Shown: piece after piece, positions 40,519 to 59,643 of the stretch
Position numbering within the stretch: position 1 is the stretch's first letter
Layout of the letters: the number at the start of each line of letters is the position of its first letter
From: a virus
DNA: 64,000 nucleotides
IMG/VR virus record: IMGVR_UViG_3300009068_000031
Span: 1-64,000 of that record
Reading direction: 5' to 3' (one strand)
The notes under the pieces: model-generated
What the model saw: the letters and a program-made list of their open reading frames with translations, nothing else
Told to the model about the DNA's origin: nothing
The model's database searches: none
Position numbers and translations under genes: made by a program

Positions 40519-41119
40519 TATACAAGACGTTTTATTTTGGATGGATGCTATCAGACAATCTGATGACAGATATCGCACATTGGAAAGTTTCTGGAAAGGT
40601 CAAATCAACAGCAAAGTATGGTTGATTGAACAATTAAAAAAATTACCCAGAGCACACAGCATGGATATTTTGATTTGTGGTGGGTGGTATGGAGTGATGG
40701 CCACACTTTTGTTCAACAGTGATCTGTATGTGAACCAAATAACCAGCATGGATATAGACAGCAAGTGTGAAAACACAGCCAACACCATGAACAAACAGTA
40801 TGAAATGTCTGGCAAATTCCATGCTATTACTCAAGACATGCTCACTTATAAAGATTACAGTCGTTATGACATGATTATTAACACAGTGTGTGAACATTTA
40901 ACGCCAGAACAATACAATGAATGGTTGAAATTAATACCTGAGGACAAAATTATTGTGTGCCAAAGCAATGATTTTGTGATTCCTGAACATGTGAACCCTG
41001 TGAAAGATTTGAATCAGTTTGTGAGCAATAGTAAACTGTATCCTATTGTGGAGCCCAGCGAATTACAAACAGAAAAATACAAAAGATTTATGATTGTAGG
41101 AAAGAAAAATGAAAAATAA
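40505..41119 (+). CDS. Probable SAM-dependent methyltransferase, TTG start
   Basis: A 204-residue protein with a class I methyltransferase pattern. MDILICGGWYGVMATLLF fits motif I, ITSMDIDSKC the acidic strand-2 motif, and YDMIINTVCEHLTPEQYNEW motif IV. The start is not ATG: AGGAG (40494-40498) lies 6 nt before TTG at 40505 (a second TTG is at 40508), and the first ATG is only at 40541. Start and ribosome site lie inside the upstream radical SAM gene, so the two are coupled. The acceptor is unknown; a product of the neighbouring radical SAM enzymes is a natural guess. Confidence 0.65.
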   Translation: MLKINIQDVLFWMDAIRQSDDRYRTLESFWKGQINSKVWLIEQLKKLPRAHSMDILICGGWYGVMATLLFNSDLYVNQITSMDIDSKCENTANTMNKQYEMSGKFHAITQDMLTYKDYSRYDMIINTVCEHLTPEQYNEWLKLIPEDKIIVCQSNDFVIPEHVNPVKDLNQFVSNSKLYPIVEPSELQTEKYKRFMIVGKKNEK

Positions 41120-42377
41120 AAGTTGTACATTTTGTATGCATCCATTCACAGGATTGGCCACCAGAGAAGATGGTGCTATAAAGGTGTGTTGCAGAAGTTT
41201 ACCCATCAGTAATATACAAAATGAAACCATGGAACAGGCATGGAACAATGAAAAGATGAAAGAAGTGCGACGTCAGGTGTTGAATGATGAGCGACCTGAT
41301 GTGTGTGCGCCTTGTTTTGATCTAGAAGATCAAGGAGTGCAGAGTTTGAGACAAAGACACATCAGTGATAATATTCCTGAATCTAGAATCAATCTATATC
41401 CCACGGCTTTGGACAGTTTAAAAGAAGATTATACCATGCCTTTTGAATTGCCCACTATGGAAATCAAAATTAATAACTTGTGCAACTTGAAATGTCGTAT
41501 GTGTAATCCATTGGACAGCACACAATGGAAAGACTGGAACAGTATTGTGGATCATTACAAGAAAGAAAACAATTACTTGGTCAAAGCAGTGGAAGATCTG
41601 GGTTTGACACAGGCTCCGCATGTGGATCTGTTTGAAGATAAACCACATTTTTGGGACAATTTAAAAAAACTTATTCCTCATTTTAAACGTGTGGAATTTG
41701 CTGGTGGCGAACCTCTAATGGATCCCACACATTATAAAATATTGGACCTATTGAGTGAGAATGGATCCAACATTGAGATCAAATATGCCACCAATGGCAC
41801 AGTGTTGGGCATCAAAGGTGGTAGGACTATACAGGAATACTGGCCCAAATTTAAAAGTGTGGCAGTGAATGTGAGTATTGATGGAATCTTTGACACTTAT
41901 GAATATATCCGAGGCAATGGCAAGTTCATGGATGTGGTCAACAACATAAAAATAATAAAACAAATACCCACAGTGAGTAGAATAGTGGGAGCATTCACAG
42001 TGCAAGCCAACAATATCATGCAAATAGACCGTGTGATTGATTACTTTTTAAATGATTTGGGCATTGTGTTTTACAGTCACAGAGTAAACTATCCCCGAGC
42101 ATTGAGTGCTCAAGTGTTGCCAGCAAAATTAAAAAATCAAGTGATAGACAAACTGGAAGCAATGAAACCTCGAATTAAAGATTATGCATTGGTCCAACAG
42201 CATCCAATATTGGAAAAAATTACTCTACAACAAATACAGGACAACATTAATTTTTTAAAAGCCAAAGATCTTAATCAATACTGGATGGATTGTGTGGATT
42301 TTAATCGCCGATTAGACATCACAAGAAATCAAGGACCTTTTGAAAAAATAAATCCGGAGTTTGCTGATTATGTTTAA
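41109..42377 (+). CDS. Radical SAM protein with N-terminal cysteine-rich (SPASM/twitch-like) domain
   Basis: A 422-residue protein. An N-terminal cysteine module (C6, C9, C27, C28, then CAPC at 66-69) precedes the radical SAM core, whose cluster motif is CNLKCRMC (C125, C129, C132); FAGGEPLMDP is the GGE motif. The order is inverted relative to classical SPASM enzymes, where the extra cluster is C-terminal. The minus-strand protein at 44858-46276 has the same architecture. The substrate cannot be told. AGGAAAG lies before the ATG. The last 8 bp overlap the next gene. Confidence 0.85.
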   Translation: MKNKSCTFCMHPFTGLATREDGAIKVCCRSLPISNIQNETMEQAWNNEKMKEVRRQVLNDERPDVCAPCFDLEDQGVQSLRQRHISDNIPESRINLYPTALDSLKEDYTMPFELPTMEIKINNLCNLKCRMCNPLDSTQWKDWNSIVDHYKKENNYLVKAVEDLGLTQAPHVDLFEDKPHFWDNLKKLIPHFKRVEFAGGEPLMDPTHYKILDLLSENGSNIEIKYATNGTVLGIKGGRTIQEYWPKFKSVAVNVSIDGIFDTYEYIRGNGKFMDVVNNIKIIKQIPTVSRIVGAFTVQANNIMQIDRVIDYFLNDLGIVFYSHRVNYPRALSAQVLPAKLKNQVIDKLEAMKPRIKDYALVQQHPILEKITLQQIQDNINFLKAKDLNQYWMDCVDFNRRLDITRNQGPFEKINPEFADYV

Positions 42378-43272
42378 AGTGGAACACTTGTATCCTCATA
42401 TCAGAAACAGTGTCAAAGTGGAATGGAATCTTGGCAAACGATGCAATTTGGATTGCAGCTATTGTCCAGCAGAAATACATGACAATCACAGTGAACACAC
42501 TGATATAGAAATACTGAAACGCACTGTGGACACATTGAGCGTTATACCCAATGTGAGAATCAGTTTGACTGGCGGTGAACCTTGTGTGCATCCACACATA
42601 GAACAGTTGTTACAACATGCCAAAAATAAAATTGGTTGGATCAATGTCACCACCAATGGTACCAGAACTGTGGAATTTTACCAAAATATTTTGGAAAACT
42701 ATATCAATCATATTGTGTTCAGTGTGCATTTGGAATCTGATTGGCTGAAGGTGATAAACACAATTATCAAGGTTTACGCACAGTCTGCCAACAAAAATGT
42801 TCTAGTGCATATGATGATGCTGCCAGGACGTTTAAAAGACGTTAAAGACGCTTGTGAGGCTCTTTTAGATGCGGGCATACGCTATGCTCTGAGACCCATA
42901 CGCTGGACCAAAACACACGATGATTTTGAAGACATGATTCATTACAGTGCGGAAGAGAAAGAATTTTTGGCAGTAAACAATCATACCCCACCAAAAAATA
43001 CTCTCATAGACAACACAGTGGAATGCAATGTGAATGATTTACTGATCAACAAAACCAATCAATTTCTAGGATGGAGTTGTATGGCTGGTGTGGAAAGTCT
43101 TATGATCAATTGGGATGGTGCAGTTCACCGAGCCACTTGTAGAGTGGGTGGCAGTTTGGGCAACATCTATCAAGGCACTTTTGCAAAACCCACAACACCT
43201 ATTGATTGTACTCGCAAATGGTGCACTTGTGCTGCAGACATAAACATAACCAAGTTGAACAATGTTGATTGA
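42370..43272 (+). CDS. Radical SAM protein with C-terminal CxxxxCxC signature
   Basis: A 300-residue protein. The motif CNLDCSYC (C25, C29, C32) and SLTGGEPCVHP define the radical SAM core. Near the C-terminus GWSCMAGVESLMINWDGAV is followed by TCRVGGSLGNI and then CTRKWCTCAAD, the layout shared with the proteins at 38535, 43262 and 47081. Those cysteines probably hold an auxiliary cluster. The ATG at 42370 is chosen because GGAG precedes it; an in-frame TTG at 42361 is less likely. The gene overlaps both neighbours, within a run of five consecutive island genes with radical SAM or methyltransferase motifs. Confidence 0.86.
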   Translation: MFKVEHLYPHIRNSVKVEWNLGKRCNLDCSYCPAEIHDNHSEHTDIEILKRTVDTLSVIPNVRISLTGGEPCVHPHIEQLLQHAKNKIGWINVTTNGTRTVEFYQNILENYINHIVFSVHLESDWLKVINTIIKVYAQSANKNVLVHMMMLPGRLKDVKDACEALLDAGIRYALRPIRWTKTHDDFEDMIHYSAEEKEFLAVNNHTPPKNTLIDNTVECNVNDLLINKTNQFLGWSCMAGVESLMINWDGAVHRATCRVGGSLGNIYQGTFAKPTTPIDCTRKWCTCAADINITKLNNVD

Positions 43273-44242
43273 AAAAATAGATTATAAATTTAAAGAATTT
43301 AACCGTGTGCTGCAGATTGAATGGACATTGGGCAATACTTGCAATTACAATTGTTCATACTGTCTGCCCATACTGCACAACAATAGCTTTCCTTGGATAA
43401 ACCTAGATGAAAGCAAAACATTCATAGACAAACTTCACAATCATTACAGCAACCTAGGTATCACAGATTACATTTGGAAATTTGGTGGGGGTGAACCTAC
43501 ACTATACAAGGATTTTGCCGAGCTGTGTGCCTACATAAATTCCAAACCTAATAATTATATCATACCCATTACCAATGGCAGTAGAAAATTACACTGGTGG
43601 CAGGAGCATGCTAAAAACTTTTTTGCTGTGCATTTCAGCATACACCCAGAATTTGTGGATCCCAATCACATTGTAGCAGTGTGTGATAATCTGATAGAAC
43701 AAAAAATCGACAGCATCTGTCATGTGATGATGAAGCCCAACGATTGGAATAGATGTTTGGAAATAGTAGAAGTGTTAAAAAACAGTCAGCACAAACAATG
43801 GGGCATACAAGCCAAACCTTTGCATCACACTTGGGAATCAGACACTGCAGAAGAAAGAGATTTATATCCTTACACTGCAGAACAAAAACAAATTTTTCAA
43901 ACTCCTATTAGAGCACAAAACAGAATCAGTCCAAGAGTGGATTCCAAATTGAACAGAGACATGTACATGGTCACTGAGGAAGGCATCAAAGATTTTGATC
44001 CTTATTGGGCAGTTACTCATGACATTGTGGACTGGAGTGGGTTCAAATGTGACGCAGGCATCAATAGAATATACATAAATTATGACAAACGCATGTATTT
44101 GGGAGCAGGCTGTAGAGTCGAATTAAATAATTTTGTTGGAAAAAAATACAATGAAGAATTTAAATTTCCCACAAAATCAATCATTTGTAATCAAAGGAGA
44201 TGTGTATGTATCGCGGACGTACAGGTGCCCAAAAGCAGATAG
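43262..44242 (+). CDS. Radical SAM protein with C-terminal CxxxxCxC signature
   Basis: A 326-residue protein with CNYNCSYC (C27, C31, C34) and FGGGEPTLYKDF. The C-terminal signature is the same as in its neighbour: GFKCDAGINRIYINYDKR, then GCRVELNNF, then CNQRRCVCIADVQV. TNGSRKLHWWQEH is close to the matching strand of the protein at 47081 (TNGSRTLRWWEEY), so these two look like recent paralogues on opposite strands. No clear ribosome site precedes the ATG, which overlaps the previous gene's end and may depend on coupling. The substrate is unknown. Confidence 0.86.
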   Translation: MLIEKIDYKFKEFNRVLQIEWTLGNTCNYNCSYCLPILHNNSFPWINLDESKTFIDKLHNHYSNLGITDYIWKFGGGEPTLYKDFAELCAYINSKPNNYIIPITNGSRKLHWWQEHAKNFFAVHFSIHPEFVDPNHIVAVCDNLIEQKIDSICHVMMKPNDWNRCLEIVEVLKNSQHKQWGIQAKPLHHTWESDTAEERDLYPYTAEQKQIFQTPIRAQNRISPRVDSKLNRDMYMVTEEGIKDFDPYWAVTHDIVDWSGFKCDAGINRIYINYDKRMYLGAGCRVELNNFVGKKYNEEFKFPTKSIICNQRRCVCIADVQVPKSR

Positions 44243-44892
44243 GATTTTTTGGAGATAGTTTTTGTTCCTATGCTGAAAAACAAAATTGGATGGGACAATT
44301 AGCAGATCATTTGGACAGCAAAGTTGTTCACAATGGAGTGGGAGGTTCCAGCTATTGGACTACAGTGATAGATTACACAAAAAACTTTGATCAATACAAA
44401 AATTTAGATTACACAGTGTTCTGCTGGACCGAACCTTACAGAATATATCATCACAAAGGAGATTTTACAGGTCCTAAAGCATACAAAAAAGACGATCCTA
44501 GATCTAAAGCAGCACAGATGTACATAGAACATTTGCGTGATTGGAACAAAGAAAGAATGGAATTCACAGCCACAGCATATTGGTTGGATCATGAATATCT
44601 CAGTAAAGTATCTGGAAAAATCATACATCTTTGGAGTTTTGGAGACATACGTATACATGATTGGCCCAAAGCAGAATTAAAAGACATTAAATTTTTACAT
44701 GATTGGAAACATGGAATAGAAATGCGTACACCTTTGTTTTATATCAGTTGTAGAACAGATTCTTTTAGACATAAATTTGAAAATCATTGGTTGAATGATA
44801 TATTTCATTTCACAGTGAATCACATGGGACCGGAAGGTGATGCTGCTGTGTTTAAGGCTATAAAAGATGTGCTAACTCAGGAAAAACTTTAG
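44206..44892 (+). CDS. SGNH/GDSL-type hydrolase-like protein
   Basis: A 228-residue protein. IGFFGDSFCSYAEKQNWMG carries the GDS block I motif with its candidate nucleophile serine. HNGVGGSSYWTTV supplies a block II glycine, and VFCWTEPYRIY fits the third block less well. A C-terminal HMGPEGDAAVFKAI could provide the catalytic His; the classical DxxH is not exact. Such enzymes remove or transfer acyl groups on sugars or lipids, which would suit a glycan-modifying island. The ATG at 44206 lies 6 nt after AAAGGAG; the ATG at 44200 is too close to it. The last 35 bp overlap the convergent gene. Confidence 0.62.
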   Translation: MYRGRTGAQKQIGFFGDSFCSYAEKQNWMGQLADHLDSKVVHNGVGGSSYWTTVIDYTKNFDQYKNLDYTVFCWTEPYRIYHHKGDFTGPKAYKKDDPRSKAAQMYIEHLRDWNKERMEFTATAYWLDHEYLSKVSGKIIHLWSFGDIRIHDWPKAELKDIKFLHDWKHGIEMRTPLFYISCRTDSFRHKFENHWLNDIFHFTVNHMGPEGDAAVFKAIKDVLTQEKL

Positions 44893-46276
44893 CAGCACTC
44901 AATCCTCTGATAGCATCCAATTTGTTCACATATTCTTTAAAGCCTGGCAACAATCTAGAATTATCTTTGGCTTCCATGTGCATCAATACTGCTTCCCAAC
45001 GTCTCCATCCATAAGGATTGGTTTTCCAAAAATCATCGTCCTGTCTATAATTGTGCTTCAGCCAATCTTTAAAGTCCATAAACAGTTCTCTTATTTGTTG
45101 TTTGTCTTCTTTGGGCAATATTTGTATGCTTAAAAAAGTTGGTATGTATAATAAATGCATGTTGACCAATCCTCCACCCATTTGTACCCCACCAGGCACT
45201 GTGCCCACATTTAATTTTTTAAATCCGCTCTGTATTTTCCATTTCATAAAATCAGGTAAGTGTTTGATATTAAAAATTTGTATGGCAGTGGCTAAACTCA
45301 CTTGTATGTTGTCAGGAGTATTGTCCAACATGTGTAAATTCTTTTCCACTGTGGCCCATTGTGTGGGAAAACGTATGTATTCATCACGCTGATGTGTGGC
45401 ATCCATGCTCACAGCAAATTTAACTTTTTTAAATTTACTCCATAACTGGATTAAATCTTCATCCACTAATATACCATTGGAATTATAACGCAACAATATA
45501 CGATCTTGATAACCCTGTCTTATGATTTCCTCTATAAAAGTTTTGTGTTCTTTGATCATTAGTGGTTCACCACCAGCAAAATACACCTGTTTGAGATTGG
45601 GTATTTGACGATACATCTCCTGCCAAAAAGTATCTTTTTCATGCCAGAAGTTGTTGAATTCTTTTCGATCCCATTGTATTTGATCTTTGACTTCTTTGTT
45701 TTGTAATTGTGGCATCAGTTGTTGCCAATCATTCACCCATTTGCTGCTGTCATGTGGAGAACACATCACACATTTGATATTGCAAGTGTGTCCCAAACGC
45801 AGATCCAAATACAATAATTTTTCAGGCACTGTGCCATCTTCTTGGGTTTGACGTATCAGTTCAGGCACATCCACACCATCTCGATGCCACGTGCCAGTTT
45901 CCCATATTCTTTTGCTCACCACACCCACACGTTCTTCATCAAAACACTTGCGACAACTGGCAGGTATCTGACCTTTCAGCATGGTGGTACGCACACTTTT
46001 CATATAATCATTGTTCCAAGCACTCATAGGAGTATCCACTCCAAAGTTGGCAGGTGTGCCATCTTCTTTTTTAATAATACCCACTGTGTGATCTGATCCA
46101 GCACCACTGGCATTGGCTGAACAACACAGCCTCATGTCACCATTGGGTCTGGTGGCAAAATGTATCCAAGGCAATATACAATAGGTGGGTGTGCCTGTGA
46201 CAGATTCTATTTCTCTCTGCCATTTGCCCAGTTGTGAATCTTCAGGATTCATCCAATATTCGTTATGGTCTGACAC
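44858..46276 (-). CDS. Radical SAM protein with N-terminal cysteine-rich (SPASM/twitch-like) domain
   Basis: A 472-residue paralogue of the protein at 41109-42377. The N-terminal module has C33, C51, C52 and CRKC (108-111). The radical SAM motif CNIKCVMC (C165, C169, C172) follows, with FAGGEPLMIKEH as the GGE motif. The C-terminal 150 residues carry no obvious further cluster ligands and end in a helical region (LLPGFKEYVNKLDAIRGL). It is the last gene of the minus-strand trio 48124-44858, and its 3' end overlaps the plus-strand SGNH gene. Its start overlaps the PP-loop gene by 14 bp, implying coupled expression. Confidence 0.85.
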   Translation of the reverse strand: MSDHNEYWMNPEDSQLGKWQREIESVTGTPTYCILPWIHFATRPNGDMRLCCSANASGAGSDHTVGIIKKEDGTPANFGVDTPMSAWNNDYMKSVRTTMLKGQIPASCRKCFDEERVGVVSKRIWETGTWHRDGVDVPELIRQTQEDGTVPEKLLYLDLRLGHTCNIKCVMCSPHDSSKWVNDWQQLMPQLQNKEVKDQIQWDRKEFNNFWHEKDTFWQEMYRQIPNLKQVYFAGGEPLMIKEHKTFIEEIIRQGYQDRILLRYNSNGILVDEDLIQLWSKFKKVKFAVSMDATHQRDEYIRFPTQWATVEKNLHMLDNTPDNIQVSLATAIQIFNIKHLPDFMKWKIQSGFKKLNVGTVPGGVQMGGGLVNMHLLYIPTFLSIQILPKEDKQQIRELFMDFKDWLKHNYRQDDDFWKTNPYGWRRWEAVLMHMEAKDNSRLLPGFKEYVNKLDAIRGLSAAKVFPELAHLL

Positions 46277-47084
46277 TGTCTACTCCCCATTGTCGCTCTT
46301 GACACCAAAAACATTCTCCACACACGGGCACGGGCTGGCCTGGCACATAAGTCCTGTAGTCCAAGTCTCCAAAGATTTTAGGTGATGTGTCGCGGTCACC
46401 TTCACAACTGCGAGTGAGATCAAATAGGTCCATTATGCCTAATTTTTTATATTGGGCAACTATCCAATCTTTCTGCACATAAGTGAAAGGGTGACAAGCA
46501 TAGCCGCCCATGTGTGCTTTGATTAATCTGTCCAGCACTGTGTCAGACAATGTGTCGAGCAACACATCTCTGTCAGTGAGACGATGATCAAATTCTTTAT
46601 CGGGATTCTTGGTCACTCCACAGTACCAAGCATCTAATTTTTTTGTGTGAGCCACATATTCAGCATGTGCTCTCAGTTCTATTTGATTGCCACTCTTTAA
46701 TCTACCATATTCATCCACAATGCTGGGTCCTTTGGATCCCCATTCCAGTTCAGGAGCAATAAAATTTTCGTGTCTTTTGAATTTTATGCTTTTAAATTCA
46801 TCAGTCAACCAGTTATAAACTTCCATACTGTTGTGACGCTGCCAAGGTCTGGTTTTCCAACATCTAACATTGGTAATAATATGCACAGTGATATTCAACT
46901 GATTTTTGTCAATCAAATCACACAGCAGATATGCCATTAGAGCACTGTCAGCACCACCACTCACACTGACGCCAATGTTTTTCCACTGGCTGGCCAAAGG
47001 AAAATACACATCATCAACTAGATGCAATATGTTTTTGAACACACTGGTTTCGTAAATTGTTTTTAATTGCTCTGTGTTACTCAT
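46263..47084 (-). CDS. QueC-like PP-loop (N-type ATP pyrophosphatase) enzyme
   Basis: A 273-residue protein. The PP-loop SGGADS (42-47) in IGVSVSGGADSALMAYLL binds ATP, which is split to AMP and pyrophosphate to activate a carboxylate or carbonyl. Four C-terminal cysteines (C227 in LTRSCEGD, C255, C258 and C261 in CGECFWCQERQWG) match the zinc site of QueC, the 7-cyano-7-deazaguanine synthase. No QueE- or QueD-like gene is evident nearby, so it may use another substrate; the strict QueC assignment is uncertain. It is flanked and overlapped by two radical SAM genes on the same strand, which suggests a three-enzyme pathway. Confidence 0.7.
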   Translation of the reverse strand: MSNTEQLKTIYETSVFKNILHLVDDVYFPLASQWKNIGVSVSGGADSALMAYLLCDLIDKNQLNITVHIITNVRCWKTRPWQRHNSMEVYNWLTDEFKSIKFKRHENFIAPELEWGSKGPSIVDEYGRLKSGNQIELRAHAEYVAHTKKLDAWYCGVTKNPDKEFDHRLTDRDVLLDTLSDTVLDRLIKAHMGGYACHPFTYVQKDWIVAQYKKLGIMDLFDLTRSCEGDRDTSPKIFGDLDYRTYVPGQPVPVCGECFWCQERQWGVDSVRP

Positions 47085-48124
47085 AAAGTTTTTTTATTGC
47101 AGTTGATTTCGGGTTGACAAGTACAGCGTTTTCTTTCACAAATTGTGGGCACAATATCAGGGTAAAAGTTATCAGTAAAATCATGGTTAAATAGATTGAA
47201 TGAACGATTCAAATTATAAAGACGATTACCACAAGAGCCTTTGATTAATCCATGCTTGTCGATCTGTATGGTGTCCACACCCACATTGCACTGCCATCCT
47301 TCAAAATTGTTCATACTGTTCAATGAAAGATAATTTTGTAATACTCTTTTCTTTTTCTTATTGTTAAAATGTAATGTGGGAGTGGAATTAAATTTTTCAA
47401 ACCTTCTTTTTTTCCAGTTGAACAGTTGAAAAAATGATGGATTTCTTTTGTTGCAGTCACTGAGATATTTCTTTTGTTCTTCATTGTAATTCACTGTGCT
47501 GTGATAAATCTCCAACACATTTATGGCCCATTTTTTTCGGCTGGATTTTAACTGCTCCACTATGGCCACACATTTATCCCAAGCATGTGGATCCATCAGC
47601 ACGTTGGCATCCACGCTGACTCCTTTTTTGTACAACAGATCTGCCACAGCAACAATATGTGGCACGTCCACTCTTTCATGATGACAGCTCAGCATCACAA
47701 TGTCATTGTAATGACCATATTCTTCCCACCATCTCAGTGTGCGTGATCCATTGGTGCTCATGCTAATCAAACAGTTGAATTGTTCTTTAAAATATTTGGT
47801 AAATTCTCCAAAATCTTTCCATATGGTGGGTTCACCTCCTATGAGGTGCAGATAGAAATCTTTTTTGCCAATATTTTTTTTGTAGTGTTCAATGAGATGG
47901 GAAAGATTCTTTTTGATCAATTCAAGATCAGGCCAACCATGTGTGCCTTCATTGGATCCTGGAAAACAATACCAGCACTTGTAGTTGCATCTGTTGCTGA
48001 GGAATAATTCTATCCTAAAACTATCTTTTTTTTGGTTGCTCTGTATCCTGATTAACTGTTCAGATGATTGGCCAGCATTGACTGACGATTCATCACTGAA
48101 ATTTGACTGCTCGAAATTGGACAT
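47081..48124 (-). CDS. Radical SAM protein with C-terminal CxxxxCxC signature
   Basis: A 347-residue protein with CNYKCWYC (C46, C50, C53 from the chosen start), LIGGEPTIWKDF, and the C-terminal pattern GWQCNVGVDTIQIDKHG, then CGNR, then CERKRCTCQPEI. It belongs with 38535, 42370 and 43262. The frame is open to 48163, but a late-promoter-like GATAAATA lies at 48139-48146. The predicted transcript start is therefore near 48133, so I choose the ATG at 48124 (MSNFEQ). No ribosome site is visible. The stop overlaps the PP-loop gene by 4 bp. Confidence 0.82.
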   Translation of the reverse strand: MSNFEQSNFSDESSVNAGQSSEQLIRIQSNQKKDSFRIELFLSNRCNYKCWYCFPGSNEGTHGWPDLELIKKNLSHLIEHYKKNIGKKDFYLHLIGGEPTIWKDFGEFTKYFKEQFNCLISMSTNGSRTLRWWEEYGHYNDIVMLSCHHERVDVPHIVAVADLLYKKGVSVDANVLMDPHAWDKCVAIVEQLKSSRKKWAINVLEIYHSTVNYNEEQKKYLSDCNKRNPSFFQLFNWKKRRFEKFNSTPTLHFNNKKKKRVLQNYLSLNSMNNFEGWQCNVGVDTIQIDKHGLIKGSCGNRLYNLNRSFNLFNHDFTDNFYPDIVPTICERKRCTCQPEINCNKKTL

Positions 48125-48137
48125 AGTATGGACAGAG

Positions 48138-48146
48138 TATTTATCG
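48138..48146 (-). promoter_or_regulatory. Late-promoter-like element for the 48124-44858 operon
   Basis: On the minus strand GATAAATAC, one base off the TATAAATA consensus in its first eight positions. The predicted transcript start is near 48133, 9 nt before the ATG at 48124. It lies inside the longest open frame of the radical SAM gene and so argues against the upstream start at 48163. Confidence 0.5.
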
Positions 48147-48186
48147 TAATTAACTGCCCACATAATTTTTCACGATAAGTACAGCT

Positions 48187-50028: not shown

Positions 50029-50784
50029 ATGAAAGGTGTTTACGGCAAACCATACATCTGTATGGATCCTTATGTGAATATACAACAATTAAAAGACATC
50101 ACAAAAGATATTCACTATGGCATAGGCAAAGCTCACGCACATATTAGATTGAACTACGGCATAGAAAATCATGAAGAATATGTGGATGATATTAAAGGAG
50201 CCTATAATTATTGGCGTGATAAAGAAACAGATCCTAAATTAAAACAGTACGGTGCAGAGTTGGAAAAAACCGACATGGTGGGTTTTCATTACTGGTTAAT
50301 GTATCAGTATCCTGTGTACGAAGCACTGAATTATCTTGTGATAAGAGAATTTGATAGATGTATTAACGCTCCATATCTACCTTATGATGCAAATAAAAAA
50401 CCAATGTATGACTGTAGATGGACAGAAGAATCCAAGTATTTTCCATCACTGGTGGATTGGGCTAAAAAACTGCCATTTGAACCATTGGGACCAATCATAC
50501 TATTGTTGAAAAATTCTGGATTAAAAACTGTCAAACACAGAGATTGCTTTTTACAGATGGAACCCTATGAACAAGAAGAGCATTTTATATGGTTTGATCC
50601 CATGAATGTTAGATCTTTGTATGTGGAAAACGGAGACGAAAAAATACACATGAATCCCGGCAGCTCATTCTATTGGAACAATCATGATTGGCATGGCGGA
50701 GTGGAAAATACCAACAAAGTGAGTTGGTCTATGAGAATAGAAGGTATCTTTAATAAAGAATTAATGGCTCAATTAAAACAATGA
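50029..50784 (+). CDS. Probable Fe(II)/2-oxoglutarate-dependent oxygenase
   Basis: A 251-residue protein. KTVKHRDCFLQM gives HxD (H170, D172), WNNHDWHGGVENTN the distal His (H222), and SMRIEGIF the Arg (R236). The N-terminus GVYGKPYICMDPYVNIQQL matches that of the minus-strand protein at 56409-57215 (GIGGRPYIDLTPHLDIEGF), so the two are paralogues with a shared extra N-terminal domain of about 150 residues. The hydroxylation target is unknown. GGGGAT precedes the ATG. The stop overlaps the start of the next gene (ATGA). Confidence 0.68.
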   Translation: MKGVYGKPYICMDPYVNIQQLKDITKDIHYGIGKAHAHIRLNYGIENHEEYVDDIKGAYNYWRDKETDPKLKQYGAELEKTDMVGFHYWLMYQYPVYEALNYLVIREFDRCINAPYLPYDANKKPMYDCRWTEESKYFPSLVDWAKKLPFEPLGPIILLLKNSGLKTVKHRDCFLQMEPYEQEEHFIWFDPMNVRSLYVENGDEKIHMNPGSSFYWNNHDWHGGVENTNKVSWSMRIEGIFNKELMAQLKQ

Positions 50785-51362
50785 AAAAAAAATTACAGTT
50801 TGATTATTTTCCAGTGATGCGTTCTTCTTATGTAGCCAATGAACTGGTTGCTGAAGGTAAGTTACAGGATCAATTGATACTGCAATGGAACAACTCTGTA
50901 TTGTTTGATACCATAGAATTAAGCAAGGAAACTGCTGAAAAAAAAAGCATAAGCAGAAGCGCTGAAATTGTTTTACAAAAAAACAATAACACATTGGTAC
51001 TACAAAATAAACAAAGTTGGCATGATGACAAACAAATAGAACTCACAGCTCAAATTGAGTTGATTTATAAAGATGTAGACTGGTGGTCATGTAAATTTAC
51101 CTATAACTTATCACTGTGTGATGCACAATCATTGCAATCTTTCAATGACAAATTTGGTATCAGTCAAGAATACTTCCATTTTAAACTGAATGGCGAAACA
51201 CTGATACACAATCAAAACGTGCAAGCAGGCACCACCTTGAGTGCAGAAAAAGAATTTTTTTGGCAAGGAGTCAATCCTATCATGTTTGAAATTGAAGAAT
51301 ACGGACATGGCAGCAGCATGGACAGTAGATTTATACAGATAGTGAGGTTCACAGTATTATGA
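50781..51362 (+). CDS. Unknown beta-rich protein
   Basis: A 193-residue protein with no family I recognise, no signal peptide and no membrane segment. Alternating hydrophobic stretches (DQLILQWNNSVLFDTIEL, IELTAQIELIYKDV, WWSCKFTYNLSL, FIQIVRFTVL) suggest a beta-sandwich. It ends in a hydrophobic strand, as does the orphan protein at 54645-55181 (ITYDQLQFEIL). It is translationally coupled to the oxygenase before it (ATGA) and to the SDR gene after it. Such a protein, placed among hydroxylases and radical SAM enzymes, could be a binding partner or a modified substrate; this is conjecture. Confidence 0.6.
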   Translation: MKKKLQFDYFPVMRSSYVANELVAEGKLQDQLILQWNNSVLFDTIELSKETAEKKSISRSAEIVLQKNNNTLVLQNKQSWHDDKQIELTAQIELIYKDVDWWSCKFTYNLSLCDAQSLQSFNDKFGISQEYFHFKLNGETLIHNQNVQAGTTLSAEKEFFWQGVNPIMFEIEEYGHGSSMDSRFIQIVRFTVL

Positions 51363-51913
51363 AAATATTAATGACCGGACATACTTCTCCCATAGGATCT
51401 GTGTTGTTTGAACATCTCAAACATCATCATGAAGTTGTGGGCATATCTAGAAACACTGGATACAATTTGAACAAATTGGAAGATATTCAACGAGTGGTTG
51501 ATCAAAGTGCGAGTTATGACCATTTTGTCAATCTAGCACACGTGGGTGATGCACAGATTCAACTGTTGATGATGGTTCATAAAAAATGGAGTGAAACAAA
51601 TAAAACAGGCAAAATAGTAACTTTTGGTACATTGGGTACTGAGTTATCAGAAGATATTTTAAAACAAGTGGGCGCTGATTTAAATTATATTAAACAAAAA
51701 ACTCATTTGGAAAATGTGCATAGGTTTTTAAGTGTTAAAACACCATTTGGTGCTCAACCTCAAAGTGTGCTGATACGAATTTTAAATTATGGTGAAAAAA
51801 CCGGAGTTAGACAGAGTGAACCCTTCTGTGATACTCAAGATATCATTCGTATTTTTAATACTGTATTGAATGAGCCTTTGTACGTCAGCACTATTGATGT
51901 AAGAAAAATTTAA
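51359..51913 (+). CDS. SDR-family NAD(P)-dependent oxidoreductase/epimerase-like protein
   Basis: A 184-residue protein with a Rossmann start (MKILMTGHTSPIGSVLF; nucleotide-binding G7 and G13), a strand ending EVVGISRN, and a candidate catalytic pair Y110 and K114 in DLNYIKQKTHLE. It is short for an extended SDR (usually about 300 residues), so the substrate-binding end is reduced. SDR proteins commonly reduce or epimerise nucleotide sugars, which suits the glycosyltransferases of the island. GAGG lies before the ATG. The stop overlaps the convergent amidinotransferase stop by 4 bp. Confidence 0.68.
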   Translation: MKILMTGHTSPIGSVLFEHLKHHHEVVGISRNTGYNLNKLEDIQRVVDQSASYDHFVNLAHVGDAQIQLLMMVHKKWSETNKTGKIVTFGTLGTELSEDILKQVGADLNYIKQKTHLENVHRFLSVKTPFGAQPQSVLIRILNYGEKTGVRQSEPFCDTQDIIRIFNTVLNEPLYVSTIDVRKI

Positions 51914-52983
51914 TTTATTATCTTTCTTTTTGAACCTTTTCTTTTAACATCTAGTGTGCAGCAATGAGTTCCACCTTCCCAATATACTTCGTGACGTTGT
52001 GGCACCACATGACAATTGATGTTGAAAGTCTTTAAATATTGAAATAGTTCAGGTAAATGTTTGCCAAACAATATGTTTTTTGAATCTAAAATTAATACGT
52101 TTAAATCAAAACAAACTTCTTGTGTGTATCCTCGCCAATTAGCCAGATATTGCTCCAACCAAGCATTGGAATATCTGCCATCTGTGGCAGTGTAGTCTTT
52201 GATATAGTTGTCTATCACAACTTTGCCAACGTAGTTTTTAACATCTATTAATTTTTTATTTCTTAATGCCAAAGGCACCCATTCTATGCCAGCATGTATT
52301 ACTGTGTCATCGTCTATTAATAAAAATCCATGATCAATATGTCCGTAGTTTTTAAACACAGTATCACCAGTGTTTTCAATCAGTGTATAATCCTTACAAT
52401 TACGTTTGAACCATTCCAAACCAAAGCTAGAACCAGGACCTCTACTGTTATACAGCAAAGAATCTCCTGCTTTGAATATGGCAGCTGTGTGCCATAGCAA
52501 TTGATCTGATAATTTTTCTTGATAGATAGAGTTAGATATGTACCAATTTTCATCTATCTGAGTGTTGATTAGTTTGGGCAGAGGCTGTGAAATCCAATTG
52601 TATCCTTCTTTGAATAATTCATTAAAAATTTTCACATAACTCAACGAATCAAAATATCTATCTGTGTAGCTGGTGTAAGTTTGTATAATTTGTCTATCCA
52701 AAATCAGATATTGATCTCTAGGTACCATGGGGCACATGGGAAAATTCACTTTAAAATTAGGCATCTCTATAGATTTTGTGTATTTTAGTACTTCTGGTCT
52801 ATGCACTTTGATGTTAGAGTTTTTTATAAAATCTGCAAGATTGTTAAGGTCTTGTTTGGTTTCTTCCAGTATTCTGTTGAAACTTGATATGCTTTCTTTG
52901 GGTAAAAAATGATCCATATCTCCAGGAGCATAACAATCTCCCACAATTACTTCTTGTAATGGATCAAATTCTGTGTGTATCAT
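51910..52983 (-). CDS. Amidinotransferase (glycine/inosamine amidinotransferase family)
   Basis: A 357-residue protein of the arginine:amine amidinotransferase family. The N-terminus EFDPLQEVIVGDCYAPGD is typical. MCPMVPRDQYLIL supplies the conserved Asp region, KNYGHIDHGFLLIDDDT the catalytic His and Asp region, and WEGGTHCCTLDVKRKG the catalytic Cys (probably C341, directly after H340). Such enzymes move the amidino group of arginine to an amine, yielding guanidino compounds such as guanidinoacetate or guanidino-inositols. It overlaps the oxygenase gene upstream by 4 bp in the minus-strand operon 57215-51910, which also holds a class III aminotransferase that could make the amine acceptor. 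That link is inference. Confidence 0.88.
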   Translation of the reverse strand: MIHTEFDPLQEVIVGDCYAPGDMDHFLPKESISSFNRILEETKQDLNNLADFIKNSNIKVHRPEVLKYTKSIEMPNFKVNFPMCPMVPRDQYLILDRQIIQTYTSYTDRYFDSLSYVKIFNELFKEGYNWISQPLPKLINTQIDENWYISNSIYQEKLSDQLLWHTAAIFKAGDSLLYNSRGPGSSFGLEWFKRNCKDYTLIENTGDTVFKNYGHIDHGFLLIDDDTVIHAGIEWVPLALRNKKLIDVKNYVGKVVIDNYIKDYTATDGRYSNAWLEQYLANWRGYTQEVCFDLNVLILDSKNILFGKHLPELFQYLKTFNINCHVVPQRHEVYWEGGTHCCTLDVKRKGSKRKIIN

Positions 52984-53534
52984 ATTAAGTATTTGTGATT
53001 AATAAACATCTGTAAAGAATATCGAATCACTTCTTGGTTGGTTATTGCTGTAACTGCGTGATCAAGATCTTTGGAATTAATTATAACTCTATTACCTATG
53101 GGTTCAACAAACTTGCCCTGTGTATCATTTTTATTTTCTTTGTAAACAAATAATCCTCCGTCATTTGTTTGCCAAACATCATTTAAGAAAATTGTTATGC
53201 CTATGTAATCCAATTCATCTTTTTCAGCATACAATCCATCCAAATGCCATCTAGCATTGTAGGGAGCTCTATTGACATGATAGCGTAGCATACTGTCGTT
53301 ATCATCCATCACTTCAGCAGACAACAACTTATTTGCCACTAAATTTTTTAATACAATAATTTTAGCAGGACCATTTAAAAAATAATAATTGCTATTTTCT
53401 AATCCTACATGATCTTTTTCTGTGCTCAGGTCGGATTTTTTAATAGCACTGATTTCGTTAGCTATTTCGTTTTGAATGGCTTTTTTTAGTTCTGATAGCG
53501 TTGCAGAGTCAAAAAAATTATCAATTATTTTCAT
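52980..53534 (-). CDS. Fe(II)/2-oxoglutarate-dependent oxygenase (prolyl hydroxylase-like)
   Basis: A 184-residue protein with the clearest oxygenase pattern in the island. YNARWHLDGLYAEKDELDYI holds HxD (H97, D99), VWQTNDGGLFVYKEN the central strands, KDLDHAVTAI the distal His (H159), and RYSLQMF the Arg (R171). It belongs to the 2OG-FeII_Oxy/prolyl 4-hydroxylase-type superfamily. It lies between aminotransferase and amidinotransferase genes, overlapping both, so it may hydroxylate the same small molecule. A protein substrate cannot be excluded. Confidence 0.82.
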   Translation of the reverse strand: MKIIDNFFDSATLSELKKAIQNEIANEISAIKKSDLSTEKDHVGLENSNYYFLNGPAKIIVLKNLVANKLLSAEVMDDNDSMLRYHVNRAPYNARWHLDGLYAEKDELDYIGITIFLNDVWQTNDGGLFVYKENKNDTQGKFVEPIGNRVIINSKDLDHAVTAITNQEVIRYSLQMFINHKYLI

Positions 53535-54636
53535 ATGATTCTAAATTTTGTTTAAGCACAGTAAAATATTCTTCAGTAGCATTCAAAGGCACAATATATA
53601 AATTTTTATAATTGCCTTTGCGTATCATATAGAGGCAACCAAAACGATTCAGTATTTCAAAACCTGTGCTTTGAATAGTTTTAACAGCAGTGTTTTGAAT
53701 TGTTTGATGGTTGTTCAATACCTGTTCTTTTTCCAGTATGTCCATATATTTTAAAGCACTGTTGATGCCTGACAGAGAAAAATTATAGGTGTATCCATGA
53801 TCCCAATCAAAGTTTGTGGGCAGTGTTTGATGTATTTTTTCATTGTACATGGTAATGCTCAAAGGAAAATATCCACCTGTGATGGCTTTGCCCATGGTGC
53901 AGATATCAGGTTGTATGGGCAAGTGTTTCCACCCAAAATAATTACCTGTTTTGCCTCCCCCTATAAAAATATCATCCATAATGATCAACACATCAAATGT
54001 TTGTTGAACATGTTTTAATTTTTGCCAAAACTCATTTGAGTTTGGAGTCATGTCCCCACCGTATGAACATGGTTCTACTATCACACTCATCACTTTGGTC
54101 CAATCCACTTGATCTATTTCAAAATCTCTGGCAAGTCTTGTTGCACCATGATACCTATCCATGTTGTACATGGGATTGATCATCAGTAGATCTCCAAGAT
54201 TATTGTTAAGGAAAGTGCTGCCGTGATAACTGCCCTCAAAACTTATCACTTGTTTTTTGTTATTGTTTTTCTTCACATGATGATAGGCAGAAGATAACTT
54301 TATTGCTCCTTCGTTGGCATCACTGCCTGACAATGCGAAGAAGCTTCTATATCCGCCACTCATCTTAAACAATTTATTGCTGAGTTCATAACTTGCATGG
54401 TTTAATTTTAAATCTTCAGCATGCACAATAGATTCTGCTATTTCTGGTTTGATATTTTTCATAGCATCACACACATATTGAATGATATCTGTTCTATCGA
54501 ATCCCAAAGTAAAGCAACTATAATGCAACAAAGGATCAACCTTTTTAACGCCATTCATAACAGTACCAAATTGCCAATGTTTGTCTGCTGGATGTGTGGG
54601 CTGCTGTCTGCCAGGTATAAGTCCTTTGAGAGTCAT
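53521..54636 (-). CDS. PLP-dependent class III aminotransferase
   Basis: A 371-residue protein. FALSGSDANEGAIKLSSA (about 100-117) and ISFEGSYHGSTF bind the cofactor phosphate region. VLIIMDDIFIGGGKTGNYFG holds the PLP-contacting Asp (D221), and DICTMGKAITGGYFPLS the Schiff-base Lys (K250). This is the pattern of ornithine, acetylornithine, DAPA and glutamate-1-semialdehyde-type aminotransferases. The substrate cannot be told from sequence. It may produce an amine for the neighbouring amidinotransferase. The start is separated by only 8 nt from the upstream orphan gene, and the end overlaps the oxygenase gene by 14 bp. Confidence 0.9.
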   Translation of the reverse strand: MTLKGLIPGRQQPTHPADKHWQFGTVMNGVKKVDPLLHYSCFTLGFDRTDIIQYVCDAMKNIKPEIAESIVHAEDLKLNHASYELSNKLFKMSGGYRSFFALSGSDANEGAIKLSSAYHHVKKNNNKKQVISFEGSYHGSTFLNNNLGDLLMINPMYNMDRYHGATRLARDFEIDQVDWTKVMSVIVEPCSYGGDMTPNSNEFWQKLKHVQQTFDVLIIMDDIFIGGGKTGNYFGWKHLPIQPDICTMGKAITGGYFPLSITMYNEKIHQTLPTNFDWDHGYTYNFSLSGINSALKYMDILEKEQVLNNHQTIQNTAVKTIQSTGFEILNRFGCLYMIRKGNYKNLYIVPLNATEEYFTVLKQNLESYENN

Positions 54637-54644
54637 AGCAATAA

Positions 54645-55181
54645 TTATAGTATTTCAAATTGTAATTGATCGTATGTGATGGCTGAAGTGTTATCAAAAA
54701 CTTTTTTGGTTTCCACGCTGAAACAACAGTATCCGTTGGCATCTATGAGATCCTTAAAATTTATGTTTTGATGTTGTCCTTGATGATATTCCTTGCCCAC
54801 TGAGTGAGTGTATTGATTACACTTCACTGTGATACGATAGTCATCTGACACATGTTCACTGCCTTGCACACTGTTGAGTCTGATCAACTGCACATGACTT
54901 TGATACAGATAATTTATTGGTTTAAGACTCCATATAATTTTGGCCTGCTCTTCCACTGAGTGAAATTTAATATCATAATTGAATTCAAAAACGTTGATAT
55001 TATCGAACACAATGGATTTTTCTAATATTATAGGAAGATTCTCCTCTGCATCATCAATGTTGGCAAATATTTTTTGTGCGTTGTGATACACATTCAACTT
55101 GTTGATATAATTGTCATGTTGACGAGACATGTATTTTTTATTAAATTCTTTGGGGCAGGTAATACGCACTGTTCTATTCAT
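54645..55181 (-). CDS. Unknown beta-rich protein
   Basis: A 178-residue protein from the ATG at 55181 (MNRTVRITCPKEF). The frame is open to 55217, but that start lies deeper in the upstream gene. I recognise no domain. Alternating hydrophobic strands (INVFEFNYDIKFHSVEE, QSHVQLIRLNSV, DDYRITVKCNQYTH, ITYDQLQFEIL) suggest a beta-sandwich like the orphan protein at 50781-51362. It sits between two hydroxylase genes and the aminotransferase in one operon. The start codon overlaps the end of the preceding oxygenase within the sequence CATGAATA. Confidence 0.6.
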   Translation of the reverse strand: MNRTVRITCPKEFNKKYMSRQHDNYINKLNVYHNAQKIFANIDDAEENLPIILEKSIVFDNINVFEFNYDIKFHSVEEQAKIIWSLKPINYLYQSHVQLIRLNSVQGSEHVSDDYRITVKCNQYTHSVGKEYHQGQHQNINFKDLIDANGYCCFSVETKKVFDNTSAITYDQLQFEIL

Positions 55182-55791
55182 GAATATAATCTTTGAATAT
55201 TTGCACAGCTTCTTCAAATTGTAGATGTGTGTTATCTAATTTTAACAGAGTAAAACACAGTGTCCAACGATCTTCAGTCATGTTGGGATTGAATGTGCTG
55301 TGCAGTTGTCCTATGTTCATCAAACTGGGTCTATTGATCACTTGCTCATGCACCAAATCACAATCTTCTTCACGTGCTGAGTAAGCATCTGTGACCACTA
55401 TATCGGGCACCACACCCGCAATTAATATATGACTATTGTCTGGTTTGACCGGTTTTAAATATTCAGGTTGTTTCACATGCCACCATCTGGTCACACTGTT
55501 GTCTGGTCCCCAGGTAAAATTAATTTTTACAGCATTGCTTATGGTAGAGGTATCATTGTGCAGAGGTATCTTTCCACCATTTGTGGGAGTATAAAATCCT
55601 TCAATAAGATTGGATACTTTTAAATCGAAGGACTCGATCCATTTGATCACACTTTGGTCAATTGATTCTGGCAAAACATATATCATATTAGGATGATCAT
55701 AACTTTTATTAAAACATCTTGGTTTTAAATATTCAAATGGTAATTTTAAGTATCTGTGATAATAATTTTGATCAGACATAGTTTTATTCAT
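55174..55791 (-). CDS. Probable Fe(II)/2-oxoglutarate-dependent oxygenase, tandem copy
   Basis: A 205-residue protein. GKIPLHNDTSTISNAVKINF holds HxD (H78, D80), and NIGQLHSTFNPNMTEDRWTL the distal His (H164) and Arg (R175). WGPDNSVTRWWHV is shared with the next upstream gene (WGPDNSFTRWWEP), as is the ending KDYIHE/KDIIHE, so the two are tandem duplicates. Two starts are possible (55791 and the M5 codon at 55779). The family resembles aspartyl/asparaginyl hydroxylases of marine phages. The target is unknown. Confidence 0.7.
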   Translation of the reverse strand: MNKTMSDQNYYHRYLKLPFEYLKPRCFNKSYDHPNMIYVLPESIDQSVIKWIESFDLKVSNLIEGFYTPTNGGKIPLHNDTSTISNAVKINFTWGPDNSVTRWWHVKQPEYLKPVKPDNSHILIAGVVPDIVVTDAYSAREEDCDLVHEQVINRPSLMNIGQLHSTFNPNMTEDRWTLCFTLLKLDNTHLQFEEAVQIFKDYIHE

Positions 55792-56407
55792 GTATTATGT
55801 CTTTAAAAATTTCTAATGCTTCAAAAAATTGTAATCTTTTATTATTTTTCATTAATGTAAGAGTAAGACCCCATCGATCTTCACTGCCATTATTAAATGT
55901 ACTATGCAATCTGCCTGCGTTAATTATGCTTGGTTTAGATAAAACTTTTTCATACAATAAATTACAATCTTTTTCTTCATAACACAGTGCTCTGTCCGCA
56001 TCATCAAATTCATAAACATACGTGTCAGGATTGAAAATTTCAGCATGCGGGCCTCCTTGATCTGGTCGCATCTTTGAAGAAACTGCATCAATTTTAGGCT
56101 CCCACCATCTAGTGAAACTGTTGTCTGGCCCCCAAATAAAAAGTAATTTGGTCATGTCCGACAATGTATCTGTATCGCTGTGTATGCCAATAGATCCATT
56201 ATTAGGTGCAGTGTAAGTTCCTTCAAAAAATTGAGATGTGGAAATATTAAAACTATCCAACCATTCAAGGATTCTTTTATCAACATGCTGTTTAGCTATT
56301 TCAAAAGTCATACCACCACTTGACCAGTTAGGCACTTTTAATGTATCAAAAATTTTTGGTCTATCTATGGTAAAAGGTAGATTTATAAAACGATGAAAGT
56401 TATTCAT
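55784..56407 (-). CDS. Probable Fe(II)/2-oxoglutarate-dependent oxygenase, tandem copy
   Basis: A 207-residue paralogue of the following gene. GSIGIHSDTDTLSDMTKLLF gives HxD (H76, D78), and NAGRLHSTFNNGSEDRWGLT the distal His (H168) and Arg (R178). The N-terminal FHRFINLPFTIDRPKIF also matches its duplicate (YHRYLKLPFEYLKPRCF). It starts 1 nt after the stop of the 56409 gene and overlaps the duplicate by 8 bp. The centre (residues 103-145) differs between the copies and may set substrate choice. Confidence 0.7.
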   Translation of the reverse strand: MNNFHRFINLPFTIDRPKIFDTLKVPNWSSGGMTFEIAKQHVDKRILEWLDSFNISTSQFFEGTYTAPNNGSIGIHSDTDTLSDMTKLLFIWGPDNSFTRWWEPKIDAVSSKMRPDQGGPHAEIFNPDTYVYEFDDADRALCYEEKDCNLLYEKVLSKPSIINAGRLHSTFNNGSEDRWGLTLTLMKNNKRLQFFEALEIFKDIIHE

Positions 56408-56408
56408 A

Positions 56409-57215
56409 TTAATAATTTTTTAAATGATCGATGCCTAATTTTTTTCTAAATGCATCGGTGAACACACAGTCAATTCTCAATCCATACTCTTGTTCACGAT
56501 TAATTTCTCCACCATGCCAGTCTTGATCGTTCCAGAAAGCTGCATTGGCATTGATGTAGGTTTTGTTTTTTGTTTCAGGATCCCAAATATAAAATCCTCT
56601 TTTGGTGTTATAACGTATGTGTATGAACTCATTGCGATGATCACTGTATCCTTGTTGATCACCCAGTTTGCCATCTAGATCTCTGTGTTCAAATGGTTGT
56701 CCATCATGTTCACAGTGAAAAAATATCACTCTGCCTATTTGACTGATAATGTTTTGATCCACAAGATTTTTAACCCATGTGACCAATCCAGGAAAATGTT
56801 TGCTTTCCTCTGTGAGATGTCTTTCAGAATTTCTATTATCCCAATCGCCTTCATTCCATAAAAAATAATAGATGTATGGATCTTTGGCACCCAACACTGC
56901 TTTGAGGTAGCGTGTGAATTGATTTCTTGTGCGGTAATCTTTGATATTGGCATACAAATCATCACCGTTTTTTCTAATAGGATGATCTATGGGCAGTGCA
57001 AGATATTCTTTCACAGCCTGATAAATTGGTTTCCAATTCAATTGATAACTCATGTCTTGTAGATTAAATCCTGGCGACATCCATGTGCCTTCTTTGGCAT
57101 ATTCTCTAGCCAAAGCAAATCCTCGGCAAATTTCAGGATGTAATTTCCTAAAACCTTCTATATCCAAATGTGGAGTTAAATCAATATATGGTCGGCCACC
57201 AATTCCTCTTATCAT
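56409..57215 (-). CDS. Probable Fe(II)/2-oxoglutarate-dependent oxygenase
   Basis: A 268-residue paralogue of the plus-strand protein at 50029-50784. The shared N-terminus is GIGGRPYIDLTPHLDIEGF. QPFEHRDLDGKL supplies HxD (H177, D179), NDQDWHGGEINREQ the distal His (H234), and GLRIDCVF the Arg (R247). Both also share EESKxFPxLVxW. It is the first gene of the minus-strand operon ending with the amidinotransferase. A late-promoter-like ACTAAATA lies so close that its predicted start falls on the ATG; no ribosome site is present. Confidence 0.7.
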   Translation of the reverse strand: MIRGIGGRPYIDLTPHLDIEGFRKLHPEICRGFALAREYAKEGTWMSPGFNLQDMSYQLNWKPIYQAVKEYLALPIDHPIRKNGDDLYANIKDYRTRNQFTRYLKAVLGAKDPYIYYFLWNEGDWDNRNSERHLTEESKHFPGLVTWVKNLVDQNIISQIGRVIFFHCEHDGQPFEHRDLDGKLGDQQGYSDHRNEFIHIRYNTKRGFYIWDPETKNKTYINANAAFWNDQDWHGGEINREQEYGLRIDCVFTDAFRKKLGIDHLKNY

Positions 57216-58494: not shown

Positions 58495-59643
58495 ATGGAA
58501 GATATAAAAACTACTAGCTTGTGTGATATCTGTTATAGACACTGTGAAGCAGTGAGAGAAACAAGAGATTCTGGAGTGTATCTAACCAAGACTTGTGCTG
58601 AGCATGGCACACAAAACATTAGAATAGAAAGAGACGTAGAATTTTATAAGCAATTACACTATGATGTTTCAGGATACACCATTCCTCATGGGATCATGGT
58701 AGAAGTCACTGACCGATGTAATTTAAATTGTCCGCACTGTTATCATAAACCTGACAATAAACAAGCTGATAGACCCATTGAACAAATATTGGATCAGATT
58801 GAACATAGATTTCATGCAGAATCTGGTGCTGTGATATTGGCTGGTGCTGAACCCACTGTGCGCAAAGACTTGCCAGAATTAATTAGACAAATCAAAGCAT
58901 TATTGAAAAGATTAAACAGACCTGAAGACGTGTGCATATTGACCAATGGAGTAAAGTTGTCTGACAGAGCATGGGTGAAAGAAATCGCTGCTGCTGGAGC
59001 CACCATGGTGATGATTGGTTTGAATCATCATTCCTATCAAGGAGCAACTGTGCATCAAAAACAACTGCAAGGCATAGACAATTGTATTGCTGAAGGAATT
59101 TTTGTGTACTATGTGGGATATACATTGGAAAGTTTGGATCATATGGAACATGTTCTGGAAGAAATACAATCTTTAGGACATAAGAGTTGGCAATACAGAA
59201 TAAGAGCCGGATCAGACATAGGTAGATCTCCTGATGAACCTAGATTTTATCTCAGTGATCATGTCAAATTGATCAAACAAATTTGTGATCGCAAAGGGTG
59301 GACTTGGGAAAAACAACCTGCTGATGATAATCTTTATCATTACATGGTGAATATCAATGGCATAACTCATAGAATTATACAATGGAGTGATGTTAAAACC
59401 ATTGACTTGGAACAATTGAAGTGTGGACCTTGGTGTGATTTCGTGCCAGGCAAACCAGTCACTAATTTTTTACATCAAATTATGTTGCGTGATGCTGCTG
59501 TGAATAAAAAAATGATACTGTATGATACTGTGCCAGCATGTTATGGTATTCAATCAAAAAATATAGATTACAAACCTTCTCAATGGACCAATCGCAGTTG
59601 GGCTGACTGTAAAATTAAACAATCCAAAACAATTCAAAAATAA
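58495..59643 (+). CDS. Radical SAM protein of the COG1964/Tes-like type
   Basis: A 382-residue protein. The N-terminal metal-binding module (C10, C13, C17 in LCDICYRHCEA; C34 in TKTCAEHG) precedes the radical SAM motif CNLNCPHC (C75, C79, C82) and the AGAEPT form of the GGE motif. This domain order is that of the COG1964 group, which includes the archaeal tetraether lipid synthase Tes and MJ0619-type methyltransferases. It differs from the other seven radical SAM proteins of the island. C-terminal cysteines (CGPWCDFVPG, ACYGIQ) may hold another cluster. The substrate is unknown. It ends 6 bp before a convergent fibre gene. Confidence 0.8.
   Translation: MEDIKTTSLCDICYRHCEAVRETRDSGVYLTKTCAEHGTQNIRIERDVEFYKQLHYDVSGYTIPHGIMVEVTDRCNLNCPHCYHKPDNKQADRPIEQILDQIEHRFHAESGAVILAGAEPTVRKDLPELIRQIKALLKRLNRPEDVCILTNGVKLSDRAWVKEIAAAGATMVMIGLNHHSYQGATVHQKQLQGIDNCIAEGIFVYYVGYTLESLDHMEHVLEEIQSLGHKSWQYRIRAGSDIGRSPDEPRFYLSDHVKLIKQICDRKGWTWEKQPADDNLYHYMVNINGITHRIIQWSDVKTIDLEQLKCGPWCDFVPGKPVTNFLHQIMLRDAAVNKKMILYDTVPACYGIQSKNIDYKPSQWTNRSWADCKIKQSKTIQK

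Follow-up and report, generated by a model that had tools for sequence, protein, structure and literature searches.

In streptidine biosynthesis, transamination is followed by amidino transfer through StrB1, the same sequence of steps that we propose here for a seven-gene viral operon, although the streptidine aminotransferases belong to another class than the class-III enzyme of this operon, and its amidinotransferase falls outside the StrB1 clade in our tree. A literature search for phage clusters with these enzymes returned two reports and no others. Campylobacter phages CP220 and CPt10 carry a radical S-adenosylmethionine (radical-SAM) and amidinotransferase module (Timms, 2010, PMC2853527), and the jumbo cyanophage S-SSM6a carries a cluster of 2-oxoglutarate (2OG) and cupin-type oxygenases that has been proposed to make a sugar or amino-acid metabolite (Iyer, 2021, PMC7824862). 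Phage clusters with 2OG oxygenases, a halogenase and a carbamoyltransferase have also been proposed as metabolite makers (PMC7824862).

We analyzed a stretch of 64,000 nucleotides (the window), positions 1 to 64,000 of the 77.6-kb IMG/VR record IMGVR_UViG_3300009068_000031. The record is probably a fragment of a marine jumbo phage, since its gp47-like nuclease gene is closest to those of PA5oct-type giant Pseudomonas phages (~49-50% identity). The operon runs on the minus strand from 57215 to 51910 and encodes a class-III pyridoxal 5'-phosphate (PLP) aminotransferase (AT), an amidinotransferase-fold protein (AMDT), four predicted Fe(II)/2OG oxygenases (OX2, OX5, OX6 and OX7) and a conserved protein, U4. 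We propose, with a probability of about 0.5, that it is a phage guanidinylation cassette for a small metabolite or sugar. AT would provide a carbonyl-bearing intermediate with a primary amine, AMDT would act on the same scaffold by transferring the amidino group of host arginine to this amine with release of ornithine, and the oxygenases would hydroxylate the scaffold before or after amidino transfer. The product would most likely be a small hydroxylated guanidino metabolite or sugar, which would either act as a free compound or decorate a glycan of the virion or the cell surface.

The CP220/CPt10 module resembles this locus in placing a phage amidinotransferase, 29% identical to AMDT, in an exchangeable metabolic island; however, the CP220 enzyme keeps Asp at position 165, occupies another place in the tree, and the surroundings of its gene yielded no AT homologue. 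As in the S-SSM6a cluster, halogenase and carbamoyltransferase genes occur near cassettes related to that of the window, but no aminotransferase-amidinotransferase pair is described for the S-SSM6a cluster, and neither enzyme is named in the main text (PMC7824862). As far as our searches show, the conserved AT-AMDT unit, its spread and a His-for-Asp signature in the amidinotransferase are new.

Family, fold and active site of the amidinotransferase

AMDT (357 aa, 51910..52983, minus strand) received no name from Pfam, PHROGs or NCBIfam, and PDB searches were needed. PF02274 matched only 3 of 25 family members (best 2.5e-4) and nothing in the window's own record. Using phmmer against the PDB, HsvA was the best match at 3.5e-22, accompanied by SxtG, StrB1 and AGAT, and a 25-sequence profile retrieved amidinotransferases only, with values from 7e-59 to 7e-45 (HsvA 7e-59, StrB1 1e-48, AGAT 6e-47, SxtG 3e-46) and no match to ADI, DDAH or agmatine deiminase. 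The AlphaFold model (pLDDT 88.9, pTM 0.90) gave a corresponding result in Foldseek, with HsvA first at 1.7e-24, followed by SxtG, AGAT and StrB1 (down to 1.6e-21); DDAH (3e-10) and arginine deiminase (~1e-8) came next, ~11 orders of magnitude behind. Because the PDB profile and the predicted model match the same four enzymes, we assign AMDT to the transferases by family and by a pentein fold nearest to theirs. The first-pass annotation, made from the sequence, was to be abandoned should this protein group with arginine deiminase-like hydrolases; profile and fold instead place it with the transferases. In the phylogeny that the annotation had called for, a rapidly built tree in which several branches are long and the finer placement is unsure, AMDT belongs to a clade of 19 sequences, all of them viral (SH-aLRT 100), apart from AGAT, HsvA and StrB1, which cluster together. 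The transferase family was thus upheld, while membership in the AGAT or inosamine (StrB1) clade was not.

HsvA, the nearest solved structure by both sequence and fold, is a polyamine amidinotransferase. It is possible, if rather unlikely, that AMDT likewise amidinates an aliphatic diamine to give agmatine-like cations that aid translation or DNA packaging. The substrates of AT would then be amino acids or diamines, and the released ornithine would be recycled by SpeD-type ornithine decarboxylases of phages. Phage SpeD homologues can indeed be ornithine or arginine decarboxylases (PMC9992855), and a SpeD-family gene lay no more than 3 kb away in 8 of 41 clusters and occurred in 11 of the 26 records searched. 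However, the tree separates the viral AMDT family from HsvA, SpeD was found neither in the window's record nor in most cassettes and is common in marine phages anyway, and a polyamine product would leave the four oxygenases and U4 unexplained.

Alignment to 1jdw showed that AGAT residues Asp170, His303, Asp305 and Cys407 correspond to Asp90, His215, Asp217 and Cys341 of AMDT, so that the nucleophilic Cys, the His, both guanidinium-binding Asp residues and the GG.HC.T motif, which viral AMDT has in common with human AGAT, StrB1, SxtG and HsvA, are all retained. Of 124 viral homologues, 123 have the H340-C341 pair and one has a gap there. The catalytic residues had been described as intact throughout the operon, and this holds for K250 of AT, for H340-C341 and for the HxD...H...R motifs of the oxygenases, but not for the equivalent of AGAT Asp254, the partner of His303 in the AGAT structure. 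This column holds His165 in AMDT, which in this respect departs from AGAT-type amidinotransferases. His occupies the position in 74 of 78 viral sequences of a broad set and in every one of the 124 full-length viral homologues selected with a stricter score. Of the 23 cellular relatives, by contrast, 21 have Asp, and the other two (L109 with Asn, L110 with Lys) cluster with the viral sequences. Since a catalytic Asp of AGAT is replaced, AMDT chemistry may differ, and with His165 the protein could have become a binding protein or a hydrolase that deiminates arginine or a guanidino compound. We consider this unlikely, given the retained Cys, His, Asp pair and motif, the strong purifying selection on AMDT (dN/dS ~0.06-0.14), the clear placement of profile and fold on the transferase side and the linkage of the gene to an amine-making AT. 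We infer that AMDT probably transfers rather than hydrolyzes, despite His165.

The operon and recurrence of the enzyme pair

AT (371 aa, 53521..54636, minus strand) matches Aminotran_3 (PF00202, E=5e-43), and its PLP lysine, Lys250, is unchanged in 41 of 41 relatives; the protein is short relative to the nearest solved chains (455-479 aa), and the alignments reach approximately residue 314. The HxD...H facial triad and the 2OG-binding Arg are present in all four putative oxygenases. OX2 (184 aa, 52980..53534, minus strand) is the only one with a family-profile match (2OG-FeII_Oxy_3, PF13640, 1.5e-7); profile and motif agree in making it an Fe(II)/2OG oxygenase, with H97, D99, H159 and R171 invariant in 14 sequences. 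Because OX5 (205 aa, 55174..55791), OX6 (207 aa, 55784..56407) and the cupin-type OX7 (268 aa, 56409..57215), all on the minus strand, had no significant Pfam or profile match, we call them probable Fe(II)/2OG oxygenases from the motif. OX5 and OX6 are homologous to each other (40% identity), their HxD...H...R residues (H78, D80, H164 and R175 in OX5) being invariant in 18 sequences, and H177, D179, H234 and R247 of OX7 are invariant in 19 homologues. Close relatives have up to four tandem copies of OX5-type genes (loci L015, L016 and L004-L006), which suggests that hydroxylation has diversified. U4 (54645..55181, minus strand) is conserved across cassettes, and its AlphaFold model is all-beta (pLDDT 89.8); fold searches gave weak beta-sandwich matches and no clear fold relative.

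All seven minus-strand open reading frames of the first-pass annotation were recovered at identical positions and are contiguous or overlapping, as it had claimed, with gaps of 1, -8, -8, 8, -14 and -4 bases (spacing -14 to +8). All seven genes start with ATG; for U4, alignment favors the conserved ATG at 55181, giving 178 aa, over an upstream TTG at 55217. Each of the six genes tested (AMDT, AT, OX2, U4, OX5 and OX7) is under purifying selection relative to its homologues, with dN/dS ~0.06-0.31, and gene order is retained in divergent contigs, which together argue that the operon is not a chance arrangement. The number of promoter-like sites was near the shuffled expectation, and a search for the T4-late-type TATAAATA found none by the operon.

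We defined linkage as a partner gene no more than 3 kb away and judged only loci with enough flanking sequence. Of the 33 distinct AMDT loci in the close family, 28 had a linked AT, and 44 of the 56 distinct AT loci had a linked AMDT. When AT sequences were clustered at 80% identity, 19 of the 25 judgeable clusters had AMDT within 3 kb, five did not and one was mixed. The pair thus recurs in many uncultured aquatic phages, and the co-occurrence elsewhere on which the first-pass annotation had staked its proposal is borne out. In the 236-kb phage contig of locus L183, AT and AMDT stand adjacent and overlapping with no oxygenases beside them. Because the pair recurs so widely, it is probable that phages attach guanidino groups to some molecule.

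Such a trait had been thought unusual for a phage, a view that does not hold if unusual means rare, as at least 591 viral stretches match the motif of the broad AMDT family and relatives in Campylobacter phages were noted in 2010 (PMC2853527). Nevertheless, the 50,697 annotated phage records that we searched contain no close relative of AT or AMDT; the best AMDT match is CP220 (29% identity), and AT matches are general class-III enzymes with at most 30% identity. Scanning 84,980 cellular genomes with family-specific AMDT motifs yielded no relative, and looser motifs yielded 24 distant ones (22-38% identity over long matches). As these scans depend on short conserved peptides, they do not prove absence from cells.

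Genomic context, substrate and alternatives

Outside the cassette, flanks vary and include radical-SAM and glycosyltransferase-like genes, replication genes, a carbamoyltransferase and a halogenase. The 236-kb contig encodes four AMDT homologues (L189, L190, L191 and L192), no two of them in the same island. Their key position holds Ser, His, a degenerate site and Asp. The islands hold a carbamoyltransferase and DegT sugar aminotransferase, the AT, an epimerase and glycosyltransferase, and SpeD and a UDP-sugar dehydrogenase; the homologue beside the epimerase and glycosyltransferase aligns without the cysteine region. In cyanophage S-SCSM2R, an AMDT homologue adjoins genes annotated as KdsA, KdsB and 2OG oxygenases. 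This context of the AMDT paralogues favors sugar-derived substrates. SpeD and halogenase neighbors do not discriminate among substrates.

In addition to the His165 substitution, several observations weigh against the proposed guanidinylation cassette. Five close-family AMDT loci with enough flank lack AT, as does the entire distant clade of AMDT in radical-SAM islands, and some ATs are accompanied by an oxygenase or a short-chain dehydrogenase/reductase (SDR) and no AMDT. Moreover, the sugar genes flank AMDT paralogues and not consistently the AT-linked cassette. In L169, L174 and L182, a related AT has a small oxygenase-like gene on one side and a gp47-like nuclease gene on the other, with no AMDT. 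More tentatively still, and with less confidence than in the cassette itself, we suggest a pathway confined to viruses, in which the His-His-Cys AMDT subfamily and its own AT would enable uncultured jumbo phages to make a hydroxylated guanidino compound that is unknown from cells.

The surroundings of the operon bear on two further explanations. The cassette in the window is flanked by tail-fibre-like gene blocks and adjoined by several radical-SAM genes, of which one contains a SPASM-like stretch; this would fit the modification of a tail-fibre or other protein side chain by AT, AMDT and the oxygenases, in the manner of ribosomally synthesized and post-translationally modified peptides (RiPPs). 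A class-III aminotransferase works in daptide RiPPs (the family match here was below the cut-off), and the oxygenase of one related locus matches an Asp/Asn hydroxylase. However, the neighbors of the cassette are replication genes and not tail genes in more than 20 other contigs, and no precursor peptide turned up, though none was searched for; we regard protein or peptide modification as doubtful. Least probable is a modified pyrimidine in DNA that bears a guanidino side chain: phages employ PLP and radical-SAM enzymes in thymidine hypermodification and replication genes lie near the cassette in many contigs, but base modification is disfavored because a gene of the thymidylate-synthase family (here including base hydroxymethylases, with TET-type routes outside the search) was not found in 33 of 36 records, all of them fragments and including the window's and the 236-kb contig, the other three all being of the distant radical-SAM-island type. 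A sugar or small metabolite as substrate of the guanidinylation cassette fits better than DNA bases.

Flanking genes and implications

On the plus strand, facing the operon, a divergent OX7 paralogue (50029..50784; 22% identity, E=2e-9) has the same motif columns, and an SDR/epimerase-like gene (51359..51913; Pfam Epimerase 9.5e-5) converges on the operon and adjoins the cassette in close relatives too. In 19 of 41 clusters (e.g., L017, L051, L058, L060, L061 and L064), a gene no more than 3 kb from AMDT encodes a small, conserved 'CPFA'-motif protein, two members of which match DUF6875 weakly. Elsewhere in the window, positions 38481-48163 and 58495-59643 hold several radical-SAM-like genes, many of them mutual paralogues. 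A PP-loop ATPase-like gene (46263-47084) lies next to them, and islands of this kind are found again in related contigs. A single 4895-aa open reading frame spans 12242-26929 amid likely structural genes.

In the records and literature that we searched, guanidino chemistry in phages is otherwise represented by isolated annotations. Here two enzymes form a conserved unit, with a change in the amidinotransferase active site that is specific to viruses, and this unit is present in many uncultured phages and in none of the annotated phage records searched. A clear biochemical result for a single AT/AMDT pair would thus give access to a class of metabolites or surface decorations in phages.

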